DNA from: Arcobacter sp. CECT 8983 | GTDB taxonomy: Bacteria > Campylobacterota > Campylobacteria > Campylobacterales > Arcobacteraceae | Direction: 5' to 3' | DNA length: 64,000 bases | Assembly: GCF_004118855.1 (NCBI RefSeq) | Contig: NZ_PDKF01000002.1 | Location: 262,689 to 326,688 of the forward strand | In this document: positions 37,872 to 47,513 of the stretch, piece by piece | How the letters are laid out: every line of letters begins with the position of its first letter | Numbering within the stretch: position 1 is the first letter of the stretch | The notes under the pieces: generated by a model | Told to the model about the DNA's origin: nothing | What the model saw: the letters and a program-made list of their open reading frames with translations, nothing else | Databases searched by the model: none | Translations under genes and position numbers: made by a program

Positions 37872-38372
37872 ATGCCTCATAGAGAAAAAAACATAAAAGA
37901 TAGAATATTAGACTTTGTTTATATTTTATCAAAGCAACCAATTTTATTAAGAGATTTACTTGATGCAAATAGACAATATAATGAAGGTATGCATGTAGAT
38001 CCAGCAAGATTAGGCTTTAGATTAAAATTAGGTCGAGCTTATTTTTTATATATTATGCTTGTCTTAGCAATTATAGTACCTCTTTCTGCTATATTACATA
38101 AGCCTTTAGCAAATATTGACCCACATATTTCTATTTTAGGAGCTATGGTAATTACAGCAGTGATTTTTATAGGATTTAATTTTTTCAGAGCTAAACTTAG
38201 AGATGAAATTACAAAAAGACAAATCAAAAAATCATGGAGACTTAGATTCCCGTACTTCTCTTATGAAGAGTATAATCAAAAAATAGAAGAGATTTATGAG
38301 CGGGCAATTAAAGATGAAATATCTAAAAAAGATTTAGAACGATATATCTTAGATAATCTTGTAGAAGATTAG
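37872..38372 (+). CDS. Small two-helix inner-membrane protein, unknown function
   Basis: A 166-aa protein with two adjacent membrane segments (about 57-75, FLYIMLVLAIIVPLSAIL, and 88-106, GAMVITAVIFIGFNF) between charged cytosolic ends. The C-terminus is helical and acidic/basic (YEEYNQKIEEIYERAI). No domain is recognised. It follows metH by 50 bp and overlaps the end of the convergent mnmD gene by 4 bp. Confidence 0.75.
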   Translation: MPHREKNIKDRILDFVYILSKQPILLRDLLDANRQYNEGMHVDPARLGFRLKLGRAYFLYIMLVLAIIVPLSAILHKPLANIDPHISILGAMVITAVIFIGFNFFRAKLRDEITKRQIKKSWRLRFPYFSYEEYNQKIEEIYERAIKDEISKKDLERYILDNLVED

Positions 38373-39094
38373 TCATAAAGGGCTTTTAGCTCTTTATTTC
38401 TTTCTTGTTTTAACTGCATATCAATATATTTTGCATTGATATCTTTTTTAGATTTTATTGCAATTGTTTGTTTTCTTTTTCCTGTAGGATTTATCTCAAA
38501 AACTTCAAACCCAGCTTTATATAAAGATAGTCTTACATTACTTGCTATTGAATAGGTGGTTACTATAACTTCATTGTTTGAAGCATTAAAAATATCTTTG
38601 AAATATTCAACAGTCCAAAGCTCACGATTTACTTCCGAGCTAAAAGCATCCTGATATACGATATCTAGATCTTTAATTGTTTTTATATATTTTCTTGCAT
38701 TGCCAATGAAAAGTTCTATTTGTATATTTTCATCTTTGTACTTTTTTGTTTCAAGTAGTTCTTTTATAATATGAGATATTTTTTCAAACTCTTGCGGAAA
38801 CTCAAACTCTTTTAAAGACTCAATTAGTTTATCGTCTAGTTCAGGAGAAAAGATTTCTATCTTTTTATCAAGATTATTCTCTAAAATATAGTTAATAGTA
38901 GAAAAAGTGTTATATCCTAAGCCAAAACAGATATCCAATATTTTTAAATATCTCTTTTCTTTGTGAAAATTAAAAGCAGGAAGAACATGTTTTATAAGAG
39001 ATTCTTGTATGGCTCCTGTTTTTAAATCATGAAAGTGTTGATTATATTTTGTAGAATAAAGTGTATTAGAATTATCTTTTGTTTTTACAAGCAT
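38369..39094 (-). CDS. mnmD: MnmC/MnmD-type tRNA wobble-uridine methyltransferase
   Basis: A 241-aa stand-alone methyltransferase domain corresponding to the N-terminal half of MnmC, which methylates nm5s2U34 to mnm5s2U34 in tRNA. SAM motif I is LKILDICFGLGYNTFST; DIVYQDAFSSEVNRELWT is the family's DAF catalytic region. The FAD-oxidoreductase half of MnmC is absent, so it is of the MnmD type. It lies 28 bp downstream of luxS and may be co-transcribed. Confidence 0.88.
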   Translation of the reverse strand: MLVKTKDNSNTLYSTKYNQHFHDLKTGAIQESLIKHVLPAFNFHKEKRYLKILDICFGLGYNTFSTINYILENNLDKKIEIFSPELDDKLIESLKEFEFPQEFEKISHIIKELLETKKYKDENIQIELFIGNARKYIKTIKDLDIVYQDAFSSEVNRELWTVEYFKDIFNASNNEVIVTTYSIASNVRLSLYKAGFEVFEINPTGKRKQTIAIKSKKDINAKYIDMQLKQERNKELKALYD

Positions 39095-39122
39095 GTTTGG
39101 AACTAAGCCAAAGGGCTTAGTT

Positions 39123-39638
39123 TTAGTTTCCTAAAGAGTTTAACTTTTCTTCTGAAAGGAAAAGTTCTTTATTTGACATTACACCAATTTTTTGGTCTAA
39201 AATGTCTTGTGCAATCTGTTTTGCTTCTTCTAATGAGTGCATTTTATATGTACCACATTGAAACTCATTTAACTCTGGAATATCATTTTGTGACTTTACA
39301 TTTAATACATCTTCCATAGCTTGCTTCCAAGCAGTTGCAACTTGTTCTTCACTAGGATTACCTAATAAACTCATATAAAAACCAGTTCTACATCCCATTG
39401 GAGATACATCAATGATTTCTACAGTATCAGAGTTTAAATGCTCTCTAATAAATCCTGCGAAAAGGTGCTCTAAAGTGTGAATACCTTTTTCTCCTAACAT
39501 TTTTTCATTTGGTACACAGAATCTTAAATCAAAAACTGTGATAATATCTCCTGATGGAGATTTCATTGTCTTTGCAACTCTAACTGCTGGTGCTGGCATA
39601 ATTGTATGGTCAACTCTAAAACTATCTAATAATGGCAT
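39123..39638 (-). CDS. luxS: S-ribosylhomocysteine lyase (AI-2 synthase)
   Basis: LuxS cleaves S-ribosylhomocysteine to homocysteine and the AI-2 precursor DPD. The 171-aa protein has the metal site [10 protein letters not shown] (two His) and [11 protein letters not shown] with the catalytic Cys, then a second conserved Cys in ECGTYKMHS-type position ([11 protein letters not shown]). It feeds homocysteine to MetH encoded nearby. A 303-bp divergent region with an inverted-repeat element separates it from the LysE gene. Confidence 0.98.
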
Positions 39639-39721
39639 TTTATAAACCTTTCTTTTGTGATTATTTTTGGATTTTAGCTAAATAAAGTTAAATGGATGAT
39701 TAGTATAAAAAAGTAGTATTC

Positions 39722-39790
39722 TCATATCAAATAGCTTTAGAAGGACGACGTTAGGAGTAGGAGTACTTGACGGGGTGCTATTTGATATGA
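39722..39790. repeat. 69-bp inverted-repeat element with GC-rich core
   Basis: Perfect 14-bp arms: TCATATCAAATAGC (39722-39735) and GCTATTTGATATGA (39777-39790). The 41-base core is strikingly richer in G than its surroundings (GGACGACG, GGAGTAGGAGTAC, TTGACGGGG). Read on the minus strand it contains CGTCA-AG-TACT followed by TACTCCT, the same order as CGTCA-CA-TACT and TATGCTCCT in the core at 17611-17640, suggesting one family of elements. Confidence 0.75.
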
Positions 39791-39797
39791 TATTGAA

Positions 39798-39823
39798 TTT
39801 TAAGAGGCTGCTATCTCTTAAAA
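39798..39823. terminator. Terminator-like hairpin next to the inverted-repeat element
   Basis: TTTTAAGAG (39798-39806), loop GCTGCTAT, CTCTTAAAA (39815-39823). It is bidirectional in form. No gene ends here, so it may terminate an unannotated transcript from the element or be part of it. Confidence 0.45.
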
Positions 39824-39905
39824 ACATAATATCAGTATAACAGAAAATAAACTACGCATATTAAAATAACTGTTTAGAAAATATGCAATTATAATTATTT
39901 TTTGA

Positions 39906-39911
39906 TATTAT
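39906..39911 (+). promoter_or_regulatory. -10 promoter box for the LysE-family gene
   Basis: TTTTTTGATATTAT, the same extended form as upstream of the methyltransferase and AEC genes, 30 bases before the TTG start. Confidence 0.45.
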
Positions 39912-39941
39912 TGTATTTTATAATAGAAAAAAGGATTGGTT

Positions 39942-40553
39942 TTGAGTACCGAGTTTTTATTGACTTCATTAATAGTAGTTTTAATTCCAGGAACTGGTGT
40001 AATATATACAATATCAATGGGAATTTTTGCAGGAAGAAAAGAAAGTTTTTTTGCTGCAATGGGTTGCACTTTAGGAATTATTCCCCATTTGCTAGCTTCA
40101 ATATTTGGACTAGCTGCAATTTTACATACAAGTGCAGTAGCCTTTCAAATAGTAAAAATCATTGGAGTTTGTTATCTCTTTTATTTAGCATATATGATGT
40201 ATAAAGAGACAGGTTCTTTACAAATAAAAGGTAAGCAAAAACAAAAAGGACTTTACAAAATAGTATTAAGAGGTTTTTTAATTAATATTCTGAATCCAAA
40301 ACTTTCAATCTTTTTTTTAGCTTTTTTACCACAATTTATTTCTTCTTCTAGCACTACAATTGTAAGTGAAATGTTACTTATGTCCTTTGTATTTATGATT
40401 ATGACTTTTGTTGTATTTGTTATATATGGTTTTTTTGCTCACAAGTCAAGTACATTTATTCAAGATAGTCCAAAAATAATGCAAAAAATTCAAAAAGGAT
40501 TTGCAGGTATTTTTGTATTATTAGGAATGAAACTAGCTATTTCAGAAAGATAA
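39942..40553 (+). CDS. LysE/RhtB-family amino-acid exporter
   Basis: A 203-aa inner-membrane permease with about six hydrophobic segments. LIVVLIPGTGVIYTISMGIFAGRK is the family signature after the first helix, and ILNPKLSIFFLAFLPQF the second. LysE/RhtB proteins export amino acids such as lysine, threonine or homoserine lactone. The TTG at 39942 is preferred over the one at 39936 because AAGGA ends six bases before it. Substrate unknown. Confidence 0.85.
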   Translation: MSTEFLLTSLIVVLIPGTGVIYTISMGIFAGRKESFFAAMGCTLGIIPHLLASIFGLAAILHTSAVAFQIVKIIGVCYLFYLAYMMYKETGSLQIKGKQKQKGLYKIVLRGFLINILNPKLSIFFLAFLPQFISSSSTTIVSEMLLMSFVFMIMTFVVFVIYGFFAHKSSTFIQDSPKIMQKIQKGFAGIFVLLGMKLAISER

Positions 40554-40563
40554 AGAGATTTTG

Positions 40564-40929
40564 TTAAAAGTTCTTATTTTTAATAATATCTTTTAGATAA
40601 GCTTCTGCTTTTCTTTTTTGTAAATATGCAAAAACAACTATTAGTATGACTCCTATTCCATATGTTAATAAAATAGCAAGAACTACAAGAATAGTTAAAA
40701 GTAAAGTATCATGAAGTTCTGCATCTACTTGAACCTCTTTTGAATCAAGTGTAACTTTTGTATTAAATCTAAGAATAGTATTTAGCTTGCACTTTTGTAT
40801 TTCAAAACTGTTGTTTCCTTTGATTGATTCACAATTTTGATTCTTAAGTAGTTGTGCGTATAAAGAGTCTAATAACTCTTTATTATCTCTTTTTAGTGTC
40901 TGTTTTATTGATACATTAAATAGGCTCAT
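40564..40929 (-). CDS. Hypothetical small membrane protein
   Basis: A 121-aa protein with a mixed N-terminal domain of about 75 residues (SLFNVSIKQTLKRDNKELLD) containing two cysteines, and a hydrophobic region near the C-terminus (about 74-103, LLLTILVVLAILLTYGIGVILIVVFAY) that could cross the membrane once or twice, then a basic tail. No family recognised. It converges on the LysE gene and diverges from the Septu-like pair; involvement in that system is conceivable but unsupported. Confidence 0.65.
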   Translation of the reverse strand: MSLFNVSIKQTLKRDNKELLDSLYAQLLKNQNCESIKGNNSFEIQKCKLNTILRFNTKVTLDSKEVQVDAELHDTLLLTILVVLAILLTYGIGVILIVVFAYLQKRKAEAYLKDIIKNKNF

Positions 40930-41089
40930 TGCTAACCTTTTTTATTTTAGTATATCAAGTTAGTAAAAAGTAGTGTGAATTTGGCTGTATAGTTTCTAAA
41001 CTTTTGTATAGGTAGTAATCTTTTAAGGGATAAATAAGTTGTATAAAAAGAGTTTTTAAATATGATTATAAAAAATAATGGAATAATTT

Positions 41090-42838
41090 ATGGAATTAGT
41101 ATATCTGTGGGTAGAAGAGTATAAAAATATAAAAAGACAAGGGTTTAACTTTTCTCCTAAGTTTAGGTGTGAGTTTAAGCCAGAGTATGAAAAAGATGAA
41201 AATGGAGATGAATTCTTAAAGGATGATTGTGAACTTATAATAGAAGAGAATAAAGATTACCTAAGTATATTTCCTGAAAATATTAATATAACTGCTATTG
41301 TTGGTGAGAATGGGAGTGGTAAGAGTACAATTTTAGATATTGTTACAAATATGAATAGAAATTTAAGTAAACTAATTATTTATTATAATGGAAAAGAATT
41401 AATTGTAAAAAATTCTTATTTAGATAATTTTTCAATCAACTATTTGAGAATAGGGGTAACGCAGCTGAAAGAATTAAATGAAAATAATTTAAGTCTGAGA
41501 GATAGCCTTTTTAAAAACTATCAAAAATATTTTTTTGTTAATAAAGAAAAAAAGCTTGATTCATATTGGTATGATTTTATAAACATAAGTTATTTAGAAT
41601 CAGATAAAAATACTCAAATAATCATTAATTTATTAAAAAATAGAAAAATTAGATTGCCTTTTAATACCCCAAAATATTTTACAATTAGTTTAAAAGATAC
41701 AGACTATTTTGACAAAATAATTGAAAGTAAGATAGAAAGAGATGAATCATTTAATATAAGTTTTATAGAAAACAATTTTTTTAACTTAGATTATGAAATA
41801 AAAGAAAATAAGCTTAAAAGAGTTAAGTTTTATCTAATTATAGCAAATATTTTTACATATAATGAAGATTTAAATAATTCTTTCGCCAGTATTTTCTTTT
41901 CTAATAATAGCCCTCAATCAATAGATGATATTATTGATATGTTTTTACTTTATCTATCTCCTTCAGATAAAGAAGATATTAACTTTATAGTTAATTCTTT
42001 AGAAAACTCTTTTGAATCAAATAAGTACTTTAATGAATTTACAATAAAAATTGAAAAATTAGATAAAAACTTTATTAATAGGTATAGAAGGCTAATATCT
42101 TCAAAGGATAATTATTTCTCAAAAGAAAATAATATTTTTGATTTTAGGTTTGATACCAATTTAAGTGATGGAGAGTTTGAGTTTTTGCTTATATTTAGTA
42201 GGATATATGAGAAAATTGAAAACAAAGATAGTATCATATTAATAGATGAAGGTGAAAAATCATTACATCCTAATTGGCAAAAAAAATATATTTATTTTCT
42301 TGTTCAGTTTTTTGAGAAAAACTATCAAAATAAAATACAACTACTTTTAACAACACATTCTTCATTTATTCTTTCAGATATTCCAAAAGAAAGTATAATT
42401 TTTTTAGAAAAAGATGAAAAAACTGGAAATTGTATAAATGCAACTGAAAAAATGGAAGATTTTAATACTTTTGGAGCAAATATCCATACACTTCTATCTC
42501 ATGGTTTTTTTATGAAAAATGGACTTATGGGTGAATTTGCAAAAAGTAAAATTGAGAGAATAAAAAGGTTTTATGAGATTGTTAAAAAGAGTGAAAATGA
42601 AATTCAAAATAATACATCAGCCAAAAAGGCATGGATAGATTACTTTCTTAGAAGAAAAGATAAATATTATTATATTCAATCAATAATAGGTGAGCCCTTT
42701 TTACAAAAGGTTATAAAAAACTATTTAGATGAGCTTGAAAAAGTATTTGATAAAGAAAACTACAAACAAAAAAAATTAAAAAAGTTAGTTGAAGAGTTTG
42801 GAGAAGATACAGTAAGAAAGTTTTTAGACAATGACTAA
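41090..42838 (+). CDS. PtuA-like AAA/ABC-type ATPase of a Septu-like defence system
   Basis: A 582-aa SMC/ABC-like ATPase. It begins MELVYLWVEEYKNIKRQGFN, the family's opening, with Walker A GENGSGKST at residues 72-80, a signature-like LSDGEFEFLLIF near 358, Walker B IILIDEGEKSLHP near 385 and a switch region LLTTHSSFILSDI. The coiled insert between the two halves is short. It overlaps the HNH gene by 8 bp (ATGACTAA), which implies tightly coupled synthesis of two partners. In Septu systems PtuA senses the phage and the HNH partner cuts nucleic acid. No reverse transcriptase or retron RNA is next to it. Weak Shine-Dalgarno. Confidence 0.85.
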   Translation: MELVYLWVEEYKNIKRQGFNFSPKFRCEFKPEYEKDENGDEFLKDDCELIIEENKDYLSIFPENINITAIVGENGSGKSTILDIVTNMNRNLSKLIIYYNGKELIVKNSYLDNFSINYLRIGVTQLKELNENNLSLRDSLFKNYQKYFFVNKEKKLDSYWYDFINISYLESDKNTQIIINLLKNRKIRLPFNTPKYFTISLKDTDYFDKIIESKIERDESFNISFIENNFFNLDYEIKENKLKRVKFYLIIANIFTYNEDLNNSFASIFFSNNSPQSIDDIIDMFLLYLSPSDKEDINFIVNSLENSFESNKYFNEFTIKIEKLDKNFINRYRRLISSKDNYFSKENNIFDFRFDTNLSDGEFEFLLIFSRIYEKIENKDSIILIDEGEKSLHPNWQKKYIYFLVQFFEKNYQNKIQLLLTTHSSFILSDIPKESIIFLEKDEKTGNCINATEKMEDFNTFGANIHTLLSHGFFMKNGLMGEFAKSKIERIKRFYEIVKKSENEIQNNTSAKKAWIDYFLRRKDKYYYIQSIIGEPFLQKVIKNYLDELEKVFDKENYKQKKLKKLVEEFGEDTVRKFLDND

Positions 42839-43790
42839 CCTAAACTATGAAAATCATTTAAAAGATAAAAATCTTGATATAAAAAAAGAGTATTTAGCAT
42901 CTTTAAACAAAAGTAAGTTTGATAGCAAAAATGGTGAGTCTTTAGAAGATAGGTATAAAAGATATATAAAAACTACTGGTACTTTAAAAGATGTGTTTAA
43001 AGATTATTCTTTAGAAGATATTGTATTAGTTAAGACTGATAGCCTAAAAGATATAGTAGCTGATATAGAGTATAAAATTTCTAAAATAACAGAAAAGAAA
43101 AAAAAGAATTTATATCAAAAAGTAAAAGATTTATTTAAATATGAAAATAAGTTTCAAGGCGATGTAATAACGCCATTTTTTACAGATAACTTTAATTTTA
43201 GAACTTGTTTTTATTGCAACAAGGATTTTATAACAAACTTTGAAAAACAAAAGGGTGTATACACGTCTACTTTTCAGTTAGACCATTTCTATGATAAAGG
43301 TACTTATCCTTATTTAGCCTTGTCTTTTTGTAATCTTATTCCATCATGTGCTACTTGTAACTCTAGAAAAGTAAAAGGTAGTGTAAATATGATAAATACT
43401 ATTACTCCAAATAGTGAAGACTTTAAATTTCACGAAAAAGTAAAGTTCAAATTATACTTAGATAAAAATTGTAAAGATTTGCATGTAAAAGATAAAGATG
43501 ATATTGATATTAGTCTAAAAGAACAGTTTTCAAAAGAGTATAAAAAGTATATTGAAGTTTTCAAACTAAACGAAAGATATAAAGCTCATAAAGATATAGT
43601 TTATGAGATGATAGAAAAAGCAGAACTTTATCCAGATAGTAGACTAAAAGAGTTGCAAGACATAACAGGCATTCCATATCAACAAATAAAAAAAGATATA
43701 TTTAATCTAATTGAAGAGGATGAAGATTTATCAAAAAAGCCATTTTCAAAACTAATTAAAGATATAAGTGAAGAACTAGGCTTAGTTTAA
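42831..43790 (+). CDS. PtuB-like HNH endonuclease of a Septu-like defence system
   Basis: A 319-aa nuclease. The N-terminal 110 residues are charged and helical, without a known domain. The HNH core has a CxxC zinc knuckle (CFYCNK), the catalytic QLDHFYDKGTYPYLALSF, then NLIPSCATCNSRKVKG with the second Cys pair and Asn. This is the retron/Septu-associated HNH class (TIGR02646-like). The C-terminal region (about 190-319) is helical and may bind the ATPase. It overlaps the convergent por gene by nine bases at their 3' ends, so the pair is a compact two-gene island. Confidence 0.85.
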   Translation: MTNLNYENHLKDKNLDIKKEYLASLNKSKFDSKNGESLEDRYKRYIKTTGTLKDVFKDYSLEDIVLVKTDSLKDIVADIEYKISKITEKKKKNLYQKVKDLFKYENKFQGDVITPFFTDNFNFRTCFYCNKDFITNFEKQKGVYTSTFQLDHFYDKGTYPYLALSFCNLIPSCATCNSRKVKGSVNMINTITPNSEDFKFHEKVKFKLYLDKNCKDLHVKDKDDIDISLKEQFSKEYKKYIEVFKLNERYKAHKDIVYEMIEKAELYPDSRLKELQDITGIPYQQIKKDIFNLIEEDEDLSKKPFSKLIKDISEELGLV

Positions 43791-46700
43791 AGCCTTAGTC
43801 TCTTCTATAACACTTACTTCTAGTTCATCACTATAATCCATTGAAGCCCATCTTTGAAGTTGTCTATATCTATATTGAGCATCTTTTTTATTTTTATTTA
43901 GTAGTTCATCAGCATGTTCGGGGTTTAGTTTCTTTAAAGACCTATATCTATTTTCCCTTAATAAAAACTCTTCATATCTATCCCAATCTGGTTTTTTACC
44001 AAATATTTTAATAGGATTTTGCCCTTCATCTATCTTTCTTGGATCAAAAGTATAAATAGGCCAATATCCACAATCAGTTGCAAGTTGTCCTTGTTCAACT
44101 GACTTCATAAGTCCACCTTGAATACCGTGGGCAATACATGGAGAATAACAGATAATCAAAGACGGTCCATCATAAGCTTCTGCTTCTTTCATAGCTTGTA
44201 CTGCTTGTTTTTGATTTGCCCTTGAGTTTATTTGAGCTACATAGATATTTCCATATGTCATAGAGATATAGCCTAAATCTTTTTTAGCATTTGGCTTACC
44301 ATCATTTGTAAAATCTGCAATAGAACCAGCCCTTGCAGCTTTTGATGATTGTCCACCAGTATTTGAATAAACTTCTGTATCTACAACAAGAATATTTACA
44401 TTTTCTCCTGTTGATAAAACATGGTCAACACCCCCATATCCAATATCATAAGCCCAACCATCTCCACCAATCATCCATTGAGATTTTCTCACAAGATATT
44501 TTCTTAGAGATAGTAATTCTTTCACTCCATCTTGGTCTTGATTATTTTCAAGTTGAGGTACAAGTTTGTCTCTTATTTCTTGAGTTTTAACTCCATTACT
44601 TCTATGTTCTAACCACTCTTTATAAAGTACTTTCAAAGGATTAGATACTTCATCCATACTCTTTAGCATAATTCTTGCAATTCTATTTCTAATAGCTTCA
44701 TTTGCTGCATGCATTCCATAACCAAATTCAGCAGTATCTTCAAATAAAGAGTTTGCCCATGCTGGACCTTCACCTTTTGCATTTTTTGTATAAGGTGTTG
44801 ATGGAGCAGAAGCAGAGTAAATAGAAGAACATCCCGTTGCATTTGCAATCATCATTCTATCCCCAAACAGTTGCGTTGCTAAAGTAATATATGGAGTTTC
44901 TCCACAACCTGGACAAGCAGAGTGGTATTCAAAAAGAGGTTGCGCAAATTGAGAGTTTTTCACATTGTTTTTTTCAACTAAATAGTCTTTATAAGAGACG
45001 TCATTAAATAAATAATCAGCATTTTCTTGTTCATTATTTTCATCTTCTATTCCATATGGAACCATTTTAAGTGATTTCTCTTTTGTAGGGCAAATATCAA
45101 CACAGATATTACAACCAGTACAGTCTAAGATAGATACTTGGATTTTATATTTTAAATCTTTGCCTTTAAACTCTTTTCCTTTTGCATCAAGTGAGTGTTC
45201 TTTTACTCCATTTGGAGCATTTTCATACTCTTTTTCATCTAATAAAAATGGTCTAATTACAGCATGTGGACACTCAAAAGCACATTGATTACATTGAATA
45301 CAGGTATCTTCATTCCATTGAGGAACCATCGTTGTAATACCTCTTTTTTCATATTTTGTTGAACCATTTTCAAAGGTACCACACTCCATTCCTAGATCTA
45401 CTATTGTGGAAACTGGAATTTCATCGCCTTTTGCAGCATTAACGATTTTTGCAAAGTTTTCTACATATTGAGAACCTTTGTAATCACTATTTATCACAAG
45501 CTCTTTAGCTTCATATTCTGCCCATTGTTTTTTTACTTCAACTTCTTCAACTCCATGTTCTCCTTGGTCAATTGCAAGATAGTTCATTTTAACTATCTCT
45601 TCACCTTTGTTTCCATAAGCTTTTTTTGCATACTCTTTCATATACTCTTTTGCTTCTTCATAGGGAATGATATTTGCTAATTTGAAAAAGGCAGCTTGCA
45701 TGATAGTATTTGTTCTATTTCCAAGTCCAATATCATGGGCTAGTTTTGTGGCATTTATGATATAAAACTTGATGTTTTTATCTGCAAGTATTTTTTTAAC
45801 TCTATTTGGTAGTTTATTCTCTATCTCATCTTTTGAGTGAATTGAGTTTAATAAAAAAGTACCATTCTCTTTTAGTTTATCTACAACTTCATATTGCTCC
45901 AAATAAATCTCTTTTGAACAGGCTACAAAACTTGGATTTGATACAAGATATGTTGAGCGAATAGGCTTTTTACTAAATCTTAAGTGTGACCTTGTATACC
46001 CACCACTTTTTTTAGAATCATAAGCAAAGTATGCTTGTGCATAAAGCTCAGTTTTGTCACCTATAATTTTTACTGAGTTTTTATTTGCTCCAACAGTTCC
46101 ATCTGCTCCAAGTCCATAAAATAAACACTCATTTACATCTTCTACAACTGAAATATTCTCTTTTACCTCAATAGATGTATTTGTTACATCATCTATAATT
46201 CCAACTGTGAAGTTATCTTTTGGATTTATAGTTGCTAGATTATCAAATAGTGCAATAATCTGATTTGGTGGTACATCCTTTGAAGAAAGTCCATATCTTC
46301 CACCTATGATTTTAGGTTGATTTTTTTGTCCATAGAATAAAGCTTTTACATCAAGATATAATGGTTCTCCTAAACTTCCTGGTTCTTTTGTTCTATCAAT
46401 TACACAGATTCTTTCAACACTTAAAGGTAAAACATTCATAAAATACTTTGCAGAAAAAGGTCTATAAAGATGAACTGTAAGAAGTCCTACTTTTCTGTTC
46501 TCTTTTTGGTTTAAGTAGTCAACTGTTTCTTTAATAGTTTCAGTTACTGAACCCATTGCTACAATTATATCAGTTGCATTTTTATGTCCATAATATGTAA
46601 ATGGAGCATAATCTCTTTTAGTGATTTTAGAAATCTCTTTCATATACTCATTTACAACATCAGGTAAAGCATCATAATATCTATTTGCAGCTTCTCTTCC

Positions 46701-47381
46701 TTGGAAGTAGATGTCATCATTTTGAGCAGTTCCTCTTGTAATTGGTGATTCGGGATTAAGTGAAGTATCTCTAAACTTTTGAACTGCTTCATAGTCAATT
46801 AATCTGTCAAACTCTTCATAGGGCATTACTTCAATTTTATTTATTTCATGTGAAGTTCTAAAACCATCAAAGAAGTGTAAGAATGGAACTCGTCCTTTTA
46901 TGGCACTTAGATGAGCAACTCCTGCTAAGTCCATAACTTCTTGAACTGAACCCGTTGCAAGCATAGCAAAACCAGTTGCTCGTGTACTCATAACATCTTG
47001 ATGATCACCAAAGATAGATAAGGCATGTGTTGCTAGAGATCTTGCACTAACATGTATAACACCAGGTAATAATTGTCCTGCTACTTTATACATATTTGGA
47101 ATTTTTAATAATAATCCTTGTGAAGCTGTAAATGTTGTAGTTAAAGCACCTGCTTGTAAAGCACCATGAAAAGTCCCAGCCGCACCTGCTTCACTTTGCA
47201 TTTCAATAACTTTTACAGTAGAACCAAAAAGGTTTTGTTTACCTTGTGTAGCCCATTTCTCAACATTGTCTCCCATTTGAGAAGAGGGTGTAATAGGATA
47301 TACTCCTGCTACTTCAGTAAAGGCATATGAAACATATGCCGCCGCTTCGTTTCCATCCATTGTAGCAAACTGTTTATTCAT
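43782..47381 (-). CDS. nifJ: Pyruvate:ferredoxin (flavodoxin) oxidoreductase, single chain
   Basis: A 1199-aa homodimeric-type POR linking pyruvate, CoA and CO2 to reduced ferredoxin or flavodoxin. Domains in order: POR N-terminal (FATMDGNEAAAYVSYAF), domain II, gamma/EKR region, two [4Fe-4S] sites (CIQCNQCAFECPHAV and CTGCNICVDICPT) and the TPP domain with GGDGWAYDIGYGG and CPGCGETPY. Length matches NifJ of enterobacteria and other Arcobacter-type genomes. The enzyme is oxygen-sensitive and works in central carbon metabolism. It is monocistronic; its 3' end is overlapped by the HNH gene. Confidence 0.97.
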   Translation of the reverse strand: MNKQFATMDGNEAAAYVSYAFTEVAGVYPITPSSQMGDNVEKWATQGKQNLFGSTVKVIEMQSEAGAAGTFHGALQAGALTTTFTASQGLLLKIPNMYKVAGQLLPGVIHVSARSLATHALSIFGDHQDVMSTRATGFAMLATGSVQEVMDLAGVAHLSAIKGRVPFLHFFDGFRTSHEINKIEVMPYEEFDRLIDYEAVQKFRDTSLNPESPITRGTAQNDDIYFQGREAANRYYDALPDVVNEYMKEISKITKRDYAPFTYYGHKNATDIIVAMGSVTETIKETVDYLNQKENRKVGLLTVHLYRPFSAKYFMNVLPLSVERICVIDRTKEPGSLGEPLYLDVKALFYGQKNQPKIIGGRYGLSSKDVPPNQIIALFDNLATINPKDNFTVGIIDDVTNTSIEVKENISVVEDVNECLFYGLGADGTVGANKNSVKIIGDKTELYAQAYFAYDSKKSGGYTRSHLRFSKKPIRSTYLVSNPSFVACSKEIYLEQYEVVDKLKENGTFLLNSIHSKDEIENKLPNRVKKILADKNIKFYIINATKLAHDIGLGNRTNTIMQAAFFKLANIIPYEEAKEYMKEYAKKAYGNKGEEIVKMNYLAIDQGEHGVEEVEVKKQWAEYEAKELVINSDYKGSQYVENFAKIVNAAKGDEIPVSTIVDLGMECGTFENGSTKYEKRGITTMVPQWNEDTCIQCNQCAFECPHAVIRPFLLDEKEYENAPNGVKEHSLDAKGKEFKGKDLKYKIQVSILDCTGCNICVDICPTKEKSLKMVPYGIEDENNEQENADYLFNDVSYKDYLVEKNNVKNSQFAQPLFEYHSACPGCGETPYITLATQLFGDRMMIANATGCSSIYSASAPSTPYTKNAKGEGPAWANSLFEDTAEFGYGMHAANEAIRNRIARIMLKSMDEVSNPLKVLYKEWLEHRSNGVKTQEIRDKLVPQLENNQDQDGVKELLSLRKYLVRKSQWMIGGDGWAYDIGYGGVDHVLSTGENVNILVVDTEVYSNTGGQSSKAARAGSIADFTNDGKPNAKKDLGYISMTYGNIYVAQINSRANQKQAVQAMKEAEAYDGPSLIICYSPCIAHGIQGGLMKSVEQGQLATDCGYWPIYTFDPRKIDEGQNPIKIFGKKPDWDRYEEFLLRENRYRSLKKLNPEHADELLNKNKKDAQYRYRQLQRWASMDYSDELEVSVIEETKALN

Positions 47382-47480
47382 TATCTATCCTTATAACTCT
47401 AGGTCTATAAATAGATAATAATTAAATAAAACTTAAAAAAGTATGAATAGTAAATAGATAAAGTTAATTTAAAAGTAATA

Positions 47481-47513
47481 AACTAATAAAAGATTACATA
47501 TCTCTTATTAGTT
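47481..47513 (-). terminator. Terminator overlapping the 3' end of the HAD gene
   Basis: Stem AACTAATAAAAGA (47481-47493) pairs with TCTCTTATTAGTT (47501-47513) with one mismatch. The stop codon of the minus-strand gene lies in the loop, and T-rich sequence follows on that strand. Confidence 0.55.

Follow-up and report, generated by a model that had tools for sequence, protein, structure and literature searches.

An ATPase-HNH nuclease gene pair of the PDC-M62 candidate defence type in Arcobacter, with signs that sensor and effector halves are exchanged

Septu systems combine an ATPase, PtuA, with an HNH nuclease, PtuB. In work on Septu EcB88, residues H75 and N91 of PtuB are described as essential, and phage protection as needing both active sites (PMC13096335). 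The targets reported for PtuAB are phage DNA and tRNA, the latter for retron-Eco7 and Septu EcB88 (PMC11555353, PMC13096335), and the PtuAB pair of retron-Eco7 is reported to arrest growth when expressed without the other retron parts (PMC11555353). A further type, PDC-M62 of the PADLOC database, belongs to systems termed unpublished candidates in PMC11811056, the single paper found to use this name, in which 203 PADLOC PDC-M62 pairs of the Bacillus cereus group were called Septu by DefenseFinder. Here, we describe a gene pair of Arcobacter sp. CECT 8983, located on a stretch of 64,000 nt (NZ_PDKF01000002.1, positions 262,689-326,688; hereafter the window), which is probably an immune module of two intact genes, similar in kind to PtuA-PtuB, and corresponds to candidate PDC-M62.

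The two open reading frames lie on the plus strand, as do their parts described below. An ATPase of 582 amino acids (PDC-M62A or PtuA-like; 41090..42838) overlaps by 8 bp an HNH nuclease of 319 amino acids (PDC-M62B or PtuB-like; 42831..43790), which reproduces the arrangement given in an earlier note on this DNA. The motifs listed there, i.e. Walker A and B, two CxxC pairs and DHF, are likewise present. The ATPase carries Walker A (GENGSGKST, residues 72-80), LSDGE (358-362), Walker B (ILIDEGE, with D386 and E387) and an H-loop (H423), and its residues K78, S359, G361, D386, E387, and H423 are invariant in alignments of 16 and of 58 rows. The nuclease motifs are C126-x2-C129, D151-H152-F153, N168, and C173-x2-C176-N177; C126, H152, N168, C173, C176, and N177 are invariant in all 67 rows of the nuclease alignment, and C129 and D151 are kept in at least 90%. 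Both proteins of the pair have intact catalytic residues. The G+C content of the island is 0.21-0.24, compared to ~0.27-0.35 in its surroundings, and a scan for promoters and terminators gave no signal above that of shuffled sequences.

Searched against PADLOC with hmmscan, the ATPase matches PDC-M62A best (8e-87), with a second PDC-M62A model (5e-62) covering residues 1-568 of 582, and the nuclease matches PDC-M62B (2.9e-56) over residues 1-317, corresponding to model positions 1-324 of 328; membership was judged by E-value and matched length, not by PADLOC's own thresholds. The runners-up are PtuA models (1e-20) and PtuB (2.3e-8). Other ATPase matches are AAA_21 in Pfam (1.2e-13), AbiLi in PADLOC (1.9e-18), PtuA by phmmer (2.8e-8), and TIGR04435 (77.8 bits, under its 300-bit cut-off). 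When a profile of 58 ATPases was searched against the PDB, PtuA of a type I-A retron came top (7.5e-23), followed by AriA (4.7e-17), and SMC and Rad50 reached 3.4e-11 at best. The earlier note had called for such profile searches and named best hits to a non-defence ATPase family as an argument against its reading; PDC-M62 and, in the PDB, PtuA are what the searches returned. Its label, Septu-type, holds for the PtuA/PtuB-kind anatomy and the nearest solved structures, but not for the curated cut-offs, which are missed, nor for the best match, which is PDC-M62. Its suggestion of an unrecognized N-terminal nuclease extension marking a distinct subtype did not survive: the PDC-M62B model covers the extension, which is therefore a feature of the family. 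On these matches, the pair is a fairly ordinary member of a catalogued PADLOC candidate near Septu.

A scan of genome contigs yielded 212 relatives, from which 78 loci were retained for comparison, all from other genomes (66 labelled Campylobacterota in the database, 10 Bacteroidota, and two only 'bacterium'). The nuclease gene, in a few cases a fragment, directly follows the ATPase gene in 69 of these; 67 were found by script, and tblastn gave a full-length nuclease match in each of two more (L114 and L137). The two genes overlap by exactly 4, 8, or 14 bp in 45 of the 67 script-found loci. The nine unpaired cases comprise four cut by a contig end (L117, L143, L155, L160), two with inserted genes (L166, L180), and three with an incomplete pair (L127, L129, L150). 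The pairing exceeds chance, because both proteins match the parts of one candidate system and because 69 of the 78 loci are paired. At L114, a second ATPase-HNH pair with a canonical PtuA/PtuB look by eye (L114:3761-5796) lies ~1.2 kb upstream of the PDC-M62 pair.

For the nuclease, structure gives a clearer picture than sequence. An AlphaFold model of the nuclease based on 67 sequences reached a pLDDT of 93.8, and PtuB-type chains of retrons and Septu occupy rows 1-9 of its structural comparison (Z 9.4-11.0; next row, Z 4.5), with alignments covering 183-206 of the 319 residues at an rmsd of 3.6-5.0. As modelled, the nuclease has a PtuB-type fold. For the ATPase model, PtuA fills the first 16 rows of a Foldseek search.

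The distribution of the pair is patchy. In a blastn comparison of the window with the luxS-POR region of two close genus mates, G010 and G009, flank matches of 83-94% stop at 41017 and resume at 43775 (G010) or 43793 (G009), leaving a segment of ~2.77 kb with both genes (41018..43790) without counterpart; the POR genes of G009 and G010 are 97% and 95% identical to that of the window. The pair lies between housekeeping genes, as the earlier note had it, at a site that is empty in these two genomes, and the universal conservation in the genus that the note had named as an argument against defence is not what we find. Core-gene status was rejected, given these empty sites and the presence of the ATPase in only 46 of 101 family genomes (profile cut-off, E 1e-25). 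Among the 16 genus genomes, 13 have a nuclease match, counting the window's own genome and a deletion scar in G015; the remaining matches are 28-44% identical, and those of G001, G006, and G011 are distant. The window's genome has a second, diverged ATPase-HNH pair elsewhere. A mobile element at the window copy was also rejected, as the window contains no tRNA gene and the flank alignments reveal no clear target duplication by eye. Among plasmids, 32 records contain a match to the nuclease, all at <60% identity. Carriage by phages was rejected: a single one of 50,697 phage records matches, and does so weakly (23.7% identity).

Several copies are decaying. In G015, the first ~32 ATPase codons are joined to the last ~22 nuclease codons (L039:7676-7840; by eye, the junction has a short shared sequence), L129 retains 38 nuclease residues, L199 has both genes split, and L200 has a split ATPase gene. 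Neighbours were scanned for defence genes using 10 proteins at five hand-chosen loci (hit cut-off, 1e-10), a sample that does not measure enrichment. In G003, 23 bp separate the pair from Lamassu LmuB, which lies upstream on the same strand; the arrangement of LmuA, a 168-aa gene, LmuB, and the PDC-M62 pair on one strand (L024:8083-14645) resembles a compound Lamassu and PDC-M62 operon. In G005, the gene after the pair encodes a type I HsdR, and type I restriction genes adjoin the distant pairs of G006 and G011, of which the G006 ATPase fits PtuA best, not PDC-M62. Three of the 10 proteins (two in L034, one in L024) gave no hit.

Conservation divides both proteins into blocks. Part 1 of the ATPase head (residues 1-88; 41090..41353) contains the conserved N-terminus, MELVYLWVEEYKNI, and Walker A, and is followed by a hypervariable middle of low identity and strong length variation (89-349; 41354..42136), the proposed sensor. 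Part 2 of the head (350-490; 42137..42559) includes LSDGE, Walker B, the H-loop, and the block around FGANIHTLLSHGFFM, and lies at the crossover region, whereas the C-terminal tail (491-582; 42560..42838), helical in the model, tracks the nuclease and is proposed to be its docking module. The nuclease begins with a helical extension (1-120; 42831..43190), which lies inside the PDC-M62B model and forms confident helices in the structure model; the HNH core (121-180; 43191..43370) holds CxxC, DHF, N168, and CxxC-N with their invariant columns, and a conserved tail (300-319; 43728..43787; family consensus KRPLSKLIKDISEELGL), of 65% median identity and retained in the G015 scar, ends the protein. 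Across 58 sequences, median pairwise identity is 71% for ATPase residues 1-40, 65% for 63-88, and 76% for 457-490, compared to 12-17%, near-random between loci, for 89-349. In the nuclease, residues 151-180 and 300-319 are within 65-76%, and residues 1-120 reach only 12-23%.

To compare the blocks, we used 73 loci at which both proteins are sufficiently complete: the window, eight loci of its genus, 55 of the 78 retained loci, and nine beside luxS. Excluded were the other 23 retained loci, three luxS duplicates, one genus duplicate of L159, and broken pairs. The more alike two ATPase tails are, the more alike are their nucleases: against three parts of the nuclease, rho is 0.38, 0.54, and 0.58, and none of 500 label permutations reaches these values. 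For ATPase residues 1-88, 89-349, and 350-490, rho ranges from -0.05 to 0.17, mostly inside the permutation range; the exceptions concern the nuclease linker, for which the values of 1-88 (0.17) and 89-349 (0.11) were reached by two and one of 500 permutations, respectively. In a sliding-window scan, the correlation rises from about residue 466 and peaks at 526-555 (rho 0.69), and it persists in the 55 retained loci alone (0.49, 0.64). Quick trees without support values were built for 72 loci, omitting the short L166 nuclease. Tail and nuclease trees share 18 of 69 splits (random maximum, two), and head and nuclease, as well as head and tail, share one of 69. In approximately unbiased (AU) tests, each of the head, tail, and nuclease data sets rejects the other two trees, indicating that even tail and nuclease are not perfectly linked; the likelihood gaps are very large and the replicates too few for exact p-values, and we therefore rely on the shared splits.

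Individual loci display the same pattern. L195 and L197 are 83-100% identical per 60-nt window up to ~nt 1380 of the ATPase gene and diverge from there through tail and nuclease. Conversely, L188, L191, and L197 have a common stretch from ~nt 1200 of the ATPase gene to the end of the nuclease gene (77-100%) but unrelated middles. L189 and L193 have in common the ATPase (bar one window), an MNT gene, and about 200 nt at the end of the nuclease gene, while the nuclease body differs; the L193 frame is short (223 aa), so this copy may be broken. The ATPase head of the window groups with L109 of Sulfurospirillum arcachonense, whereas its tail and nuclease group with L112, L119, L120, L122, L123, L126, L130, L140, and L154, with a switch point near ATPase residue 480. 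Judged by these groupings, the window pair is a mosaic, and the comparison as a whole suggests that sensor and effector halves are exchanged as separate cassettes with a boundary near residue 480. In the simplest account, each tail would hold a particular class of nuclease, sensing would fall to the middle, and the conserved blocks would act as junctions.

In some copies, genes for an MNT nucleotidyltransferase and a HepT-like HEPN protein (Pfam) are located between ATPase and HNH genes with short overlaps (L180:5810-9129, equal to G100; L189; G029:C1:2923131-2925531), and L166 (equal to G098) retains the MNT gene only. Among the 40 HEPN matches listed, the three copies found beside this ATPase (G100, G097, G029), and no others, reach at least 90% identity.

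We propose that PDC-M62 loci are combinatorial: a sensor cassette, composed of the hypervariable ATPase middle and its conserved ends, would be joined at FGANIHTLLSHGFFM near residue 480 to an effector cassette of tail and HNH nuclease, swaps would occur both ways at fixed sites (beside luxS and at a second site, often near thyA, in the window's genus), and an MNT-HEPN pair would be added between the genes in some lineages. We give this model an even chance of being right. A competitor for one part of it is that the correlation of tail and nuclease reflects nothing but physical linkage and recombination within conserved DNA, without a functional docking module, and this possibility deserves appreciable weight, if not preference. 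The tail adjoins the nuclease gene, and the breakpoints fall in or near the most conserved DNA, just as homologous recombination would place them; linkage alone could account for part of the pattern. However, ATPase residues 526-570 correlate less well with the nuclease N-terminus (rho 0.23-0.34) than with residues 101-150 (0.54-0.57) or 241-270 (0.49), and a weaker correlation for the part nearest the tail argues for contact, with the caveat that the N-terminus is harder to align. The correlation also survives the removal of pairs with nuclease-core or tail identity of at least 0.6 (0.45, 0.49).

For the module described here, we infer the following sequence of events. The ABC/SMC-like ATPase would assemble into a multimer and restrain the HNH protein by means of its helical C-terminal tail. 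Residues 89-349, the hypervariable middle, might detect a phage product or a state of infection, upon which altered ATP binding or hydrolysis would free or position the nuclease. The latter could then cut nucleic acid, either DNA or, as in retron-Eco7 and Septu EcB88, tRNA, and stop the infection, probably at the cell's cost. We favour an immune module because of the PDC-M62 matches, the PtuB fold, the top rank of PtuA in ATPase searches, and the invariant catalytic residues, and because of the empty sites, the second pair, the Lamassu and HsdR neighbours, the decaying copies, and the shared history of tail and nuclease.

Several observations weigh against this interpretation. The curated cut-offs of NF041760, NF041761 (retron-derived PtuA and PtuB), and TIGR02646 are missed (49.9 of 500, 20.5 of 150, and 24.4 of 52.15 bits, respectively). 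The nuclease retrieved no PtuB from the PDB by phmmer (best E 0.36, an unrelated protein), and its profile reached a single retron HNH chain at 1.5e-5, with further PtuB chains no better than E ~1. Foldseek E-values of the nuclease model for PtuB-type chains are weak (0.02-0.8). The ATPase model is poor in the middle (mean pLDDT 69, with blocks of 33-62 over much of 89-350), and VIA-align places ABC transporters (Z 9.5) nearly level with PtuA (Z 10.4). None of the genes directly beside the window copy is a recognized defence gene, and no assay of PDC-M62 was found in the literature searched.

As one alternative, the pair might be canonical Septu, i.e. PtuA and PtuB without separate family status, which we regard as rather unlikely. 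The DefenseFinder calls for the 203 Bacillus cereus group pairs (PMC11811056) speak for it, as do the PtuA (1e-20) and PtuB (2.3e-8) model matches and the PtuB fold; yet the PDC-M62 models score far better (8e-87, 2.9e-56), the NCBIfam cut-offs are missed, conservation is dominated by ATPase residues 1-40 and 457-490 and by the nuclease tail, and the HNH histidine lies 77 residues further in than that of PtuB EcB88. Alternatively, the ATPase could restrain a toxic nuclease that acts on plasmids or in addiction. The 32 plasmid records, the MNT and HepT-like genes inserted in some copies, and the growth arrest reported for retron-Eco7 PtuAB alone (PMC11555353) would fit such a toxin-antitoxin or plasmid-exclusion module. 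We nevertheless consider it improbable: Lamassu or type I restriction genes lie beside some relatives, the variability of the ATPase middle suggests that the targets recognized change, and joint loss or decay of both genes is less expected of an addiction module. The appearance of SMC and Rad50 in the ATPase profile search (best 3.4e-11) could finally hint at a core repair or chromosome-maintenance pair, but PtuA is far ahead (7.5e-23), the ATPase was found in 46 of the 101 family genomes at E 1e-25, two genus mates lack the pair at this site, and several copies have decayed, which together make this reading highly improbable.

The pair appears to recur at particular chromosomal sites. In the survey of the 101 family genomes, 15 of the 46 with the ATPase have it within 2.1 kb of luxS (one in the window's genus, one in g6, and 13 in g11), and it is oriented away from luxS in all 15 maps. 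Of the 13 loci in g11, 11 have downstream an operon of ~370-, 245-, and 300-aa genes, ABC-transporter-like by eye, sometimes after other small genes; in 13 further g11 genomes, luxS is followed directly by that operon in nine and by other genes in four. In two g11 genomes, the place of the pair is taken by genes that, by eye, resemble those of a MarR regulator and a short-chain dehydrogenase (L206:+144..+1291 and L211:+158..+1293 from luxS). Shared flanking genes define a second site, occupied by a pair in six of the 16 genomes of the genus and by the scar in G015; by Pfam names, a LysE-family gene neighbours four of the six pairs, and thyA neighbours four of the six as well as the scar. On the luxS side of the window itself, a LysE-type translocator gene (39936-40553) between luxS and a 121-aa gene is also missing from this interval in G009 and G010, a separate gain or loss. 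In four genus loci (L103, L104, L105, and L106, from G015, G014, G001, and G004), the luxS-POR gap is filled by four genes; three are similar to parts of the fused POR (27-31% identity), and by eye this looks like a multi-subunit oxidoreductase.

The pair itself is already catalogued; the newer point is how it evolves, and its cassette structure, together with the site beside luxS, is worth following. None of the titles listed by the literature searches, which covered few subscription journals and in two cases showed 12 of 111 and 12 of 53 papers, deals with cassettes being exchanged in PtuAB pairs or with a site for defence genes beside luxS. If the cassette reading is true, L195 and L197, with one sensor and two nucleases, would allow sensing and killing to be tested apart, as would L188, L191, and L197, with one nuclease and unrelated sensors; even in the absence of a structure, such pairs could also indicate where docking takes place. 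The site beside luxS is a place to seek new immune genes in Arcobacteraceae.

Among known systems, PARIS AriA, AbiLi, and the TIGR04435 restriction-associated ATPase have the ABC-type ATPase head in common with the window protein but match more weakly. The partner of AriA in PARIS, AriB, is a TOPRIM nuclease; unlike AriB, the window partner matches HNH models. Judged by fold or profile, the solved structures most closely related to both proteins are the effectors PtuA and PtuB of type I-A retrons (Ec78/Eco7, Ec83). Unlike these retrons, the window locus has neither a reverse transcriptase, as the earlier note had observed, nor an RNA recognized by Rfam: the sole RVT_1 match in the genome (C2:26868) is ~276 kb from the pair (C2:303778), positions 38000-47500 of the window are free of Rfam matches, and retron identity was rejected on these grounds. 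Septu likewise encodes ATPase and HNH nuclease in tandem, and chain G of its structure 8eea aligns with the nuclease model over 198 residues (Z 10.4, rmsd 3.8). The spacing of H152 and N168 in the window nuclease, 16 residues, equals that of H75 and N91 in PtuB of EcB88 (PMC13096335), although the HNH histidine is 77 residues further from the N-terminus. The window nuclease differs from Septu in being longer, with a variable helical N-terminus and a conserved C-terminal tail, and the PDC-M62 models fit far better. From PDC-M62 itself we found no difference: both proteins, the gene order, and the near-full nuclease match, including the N-terminal extension, agree.

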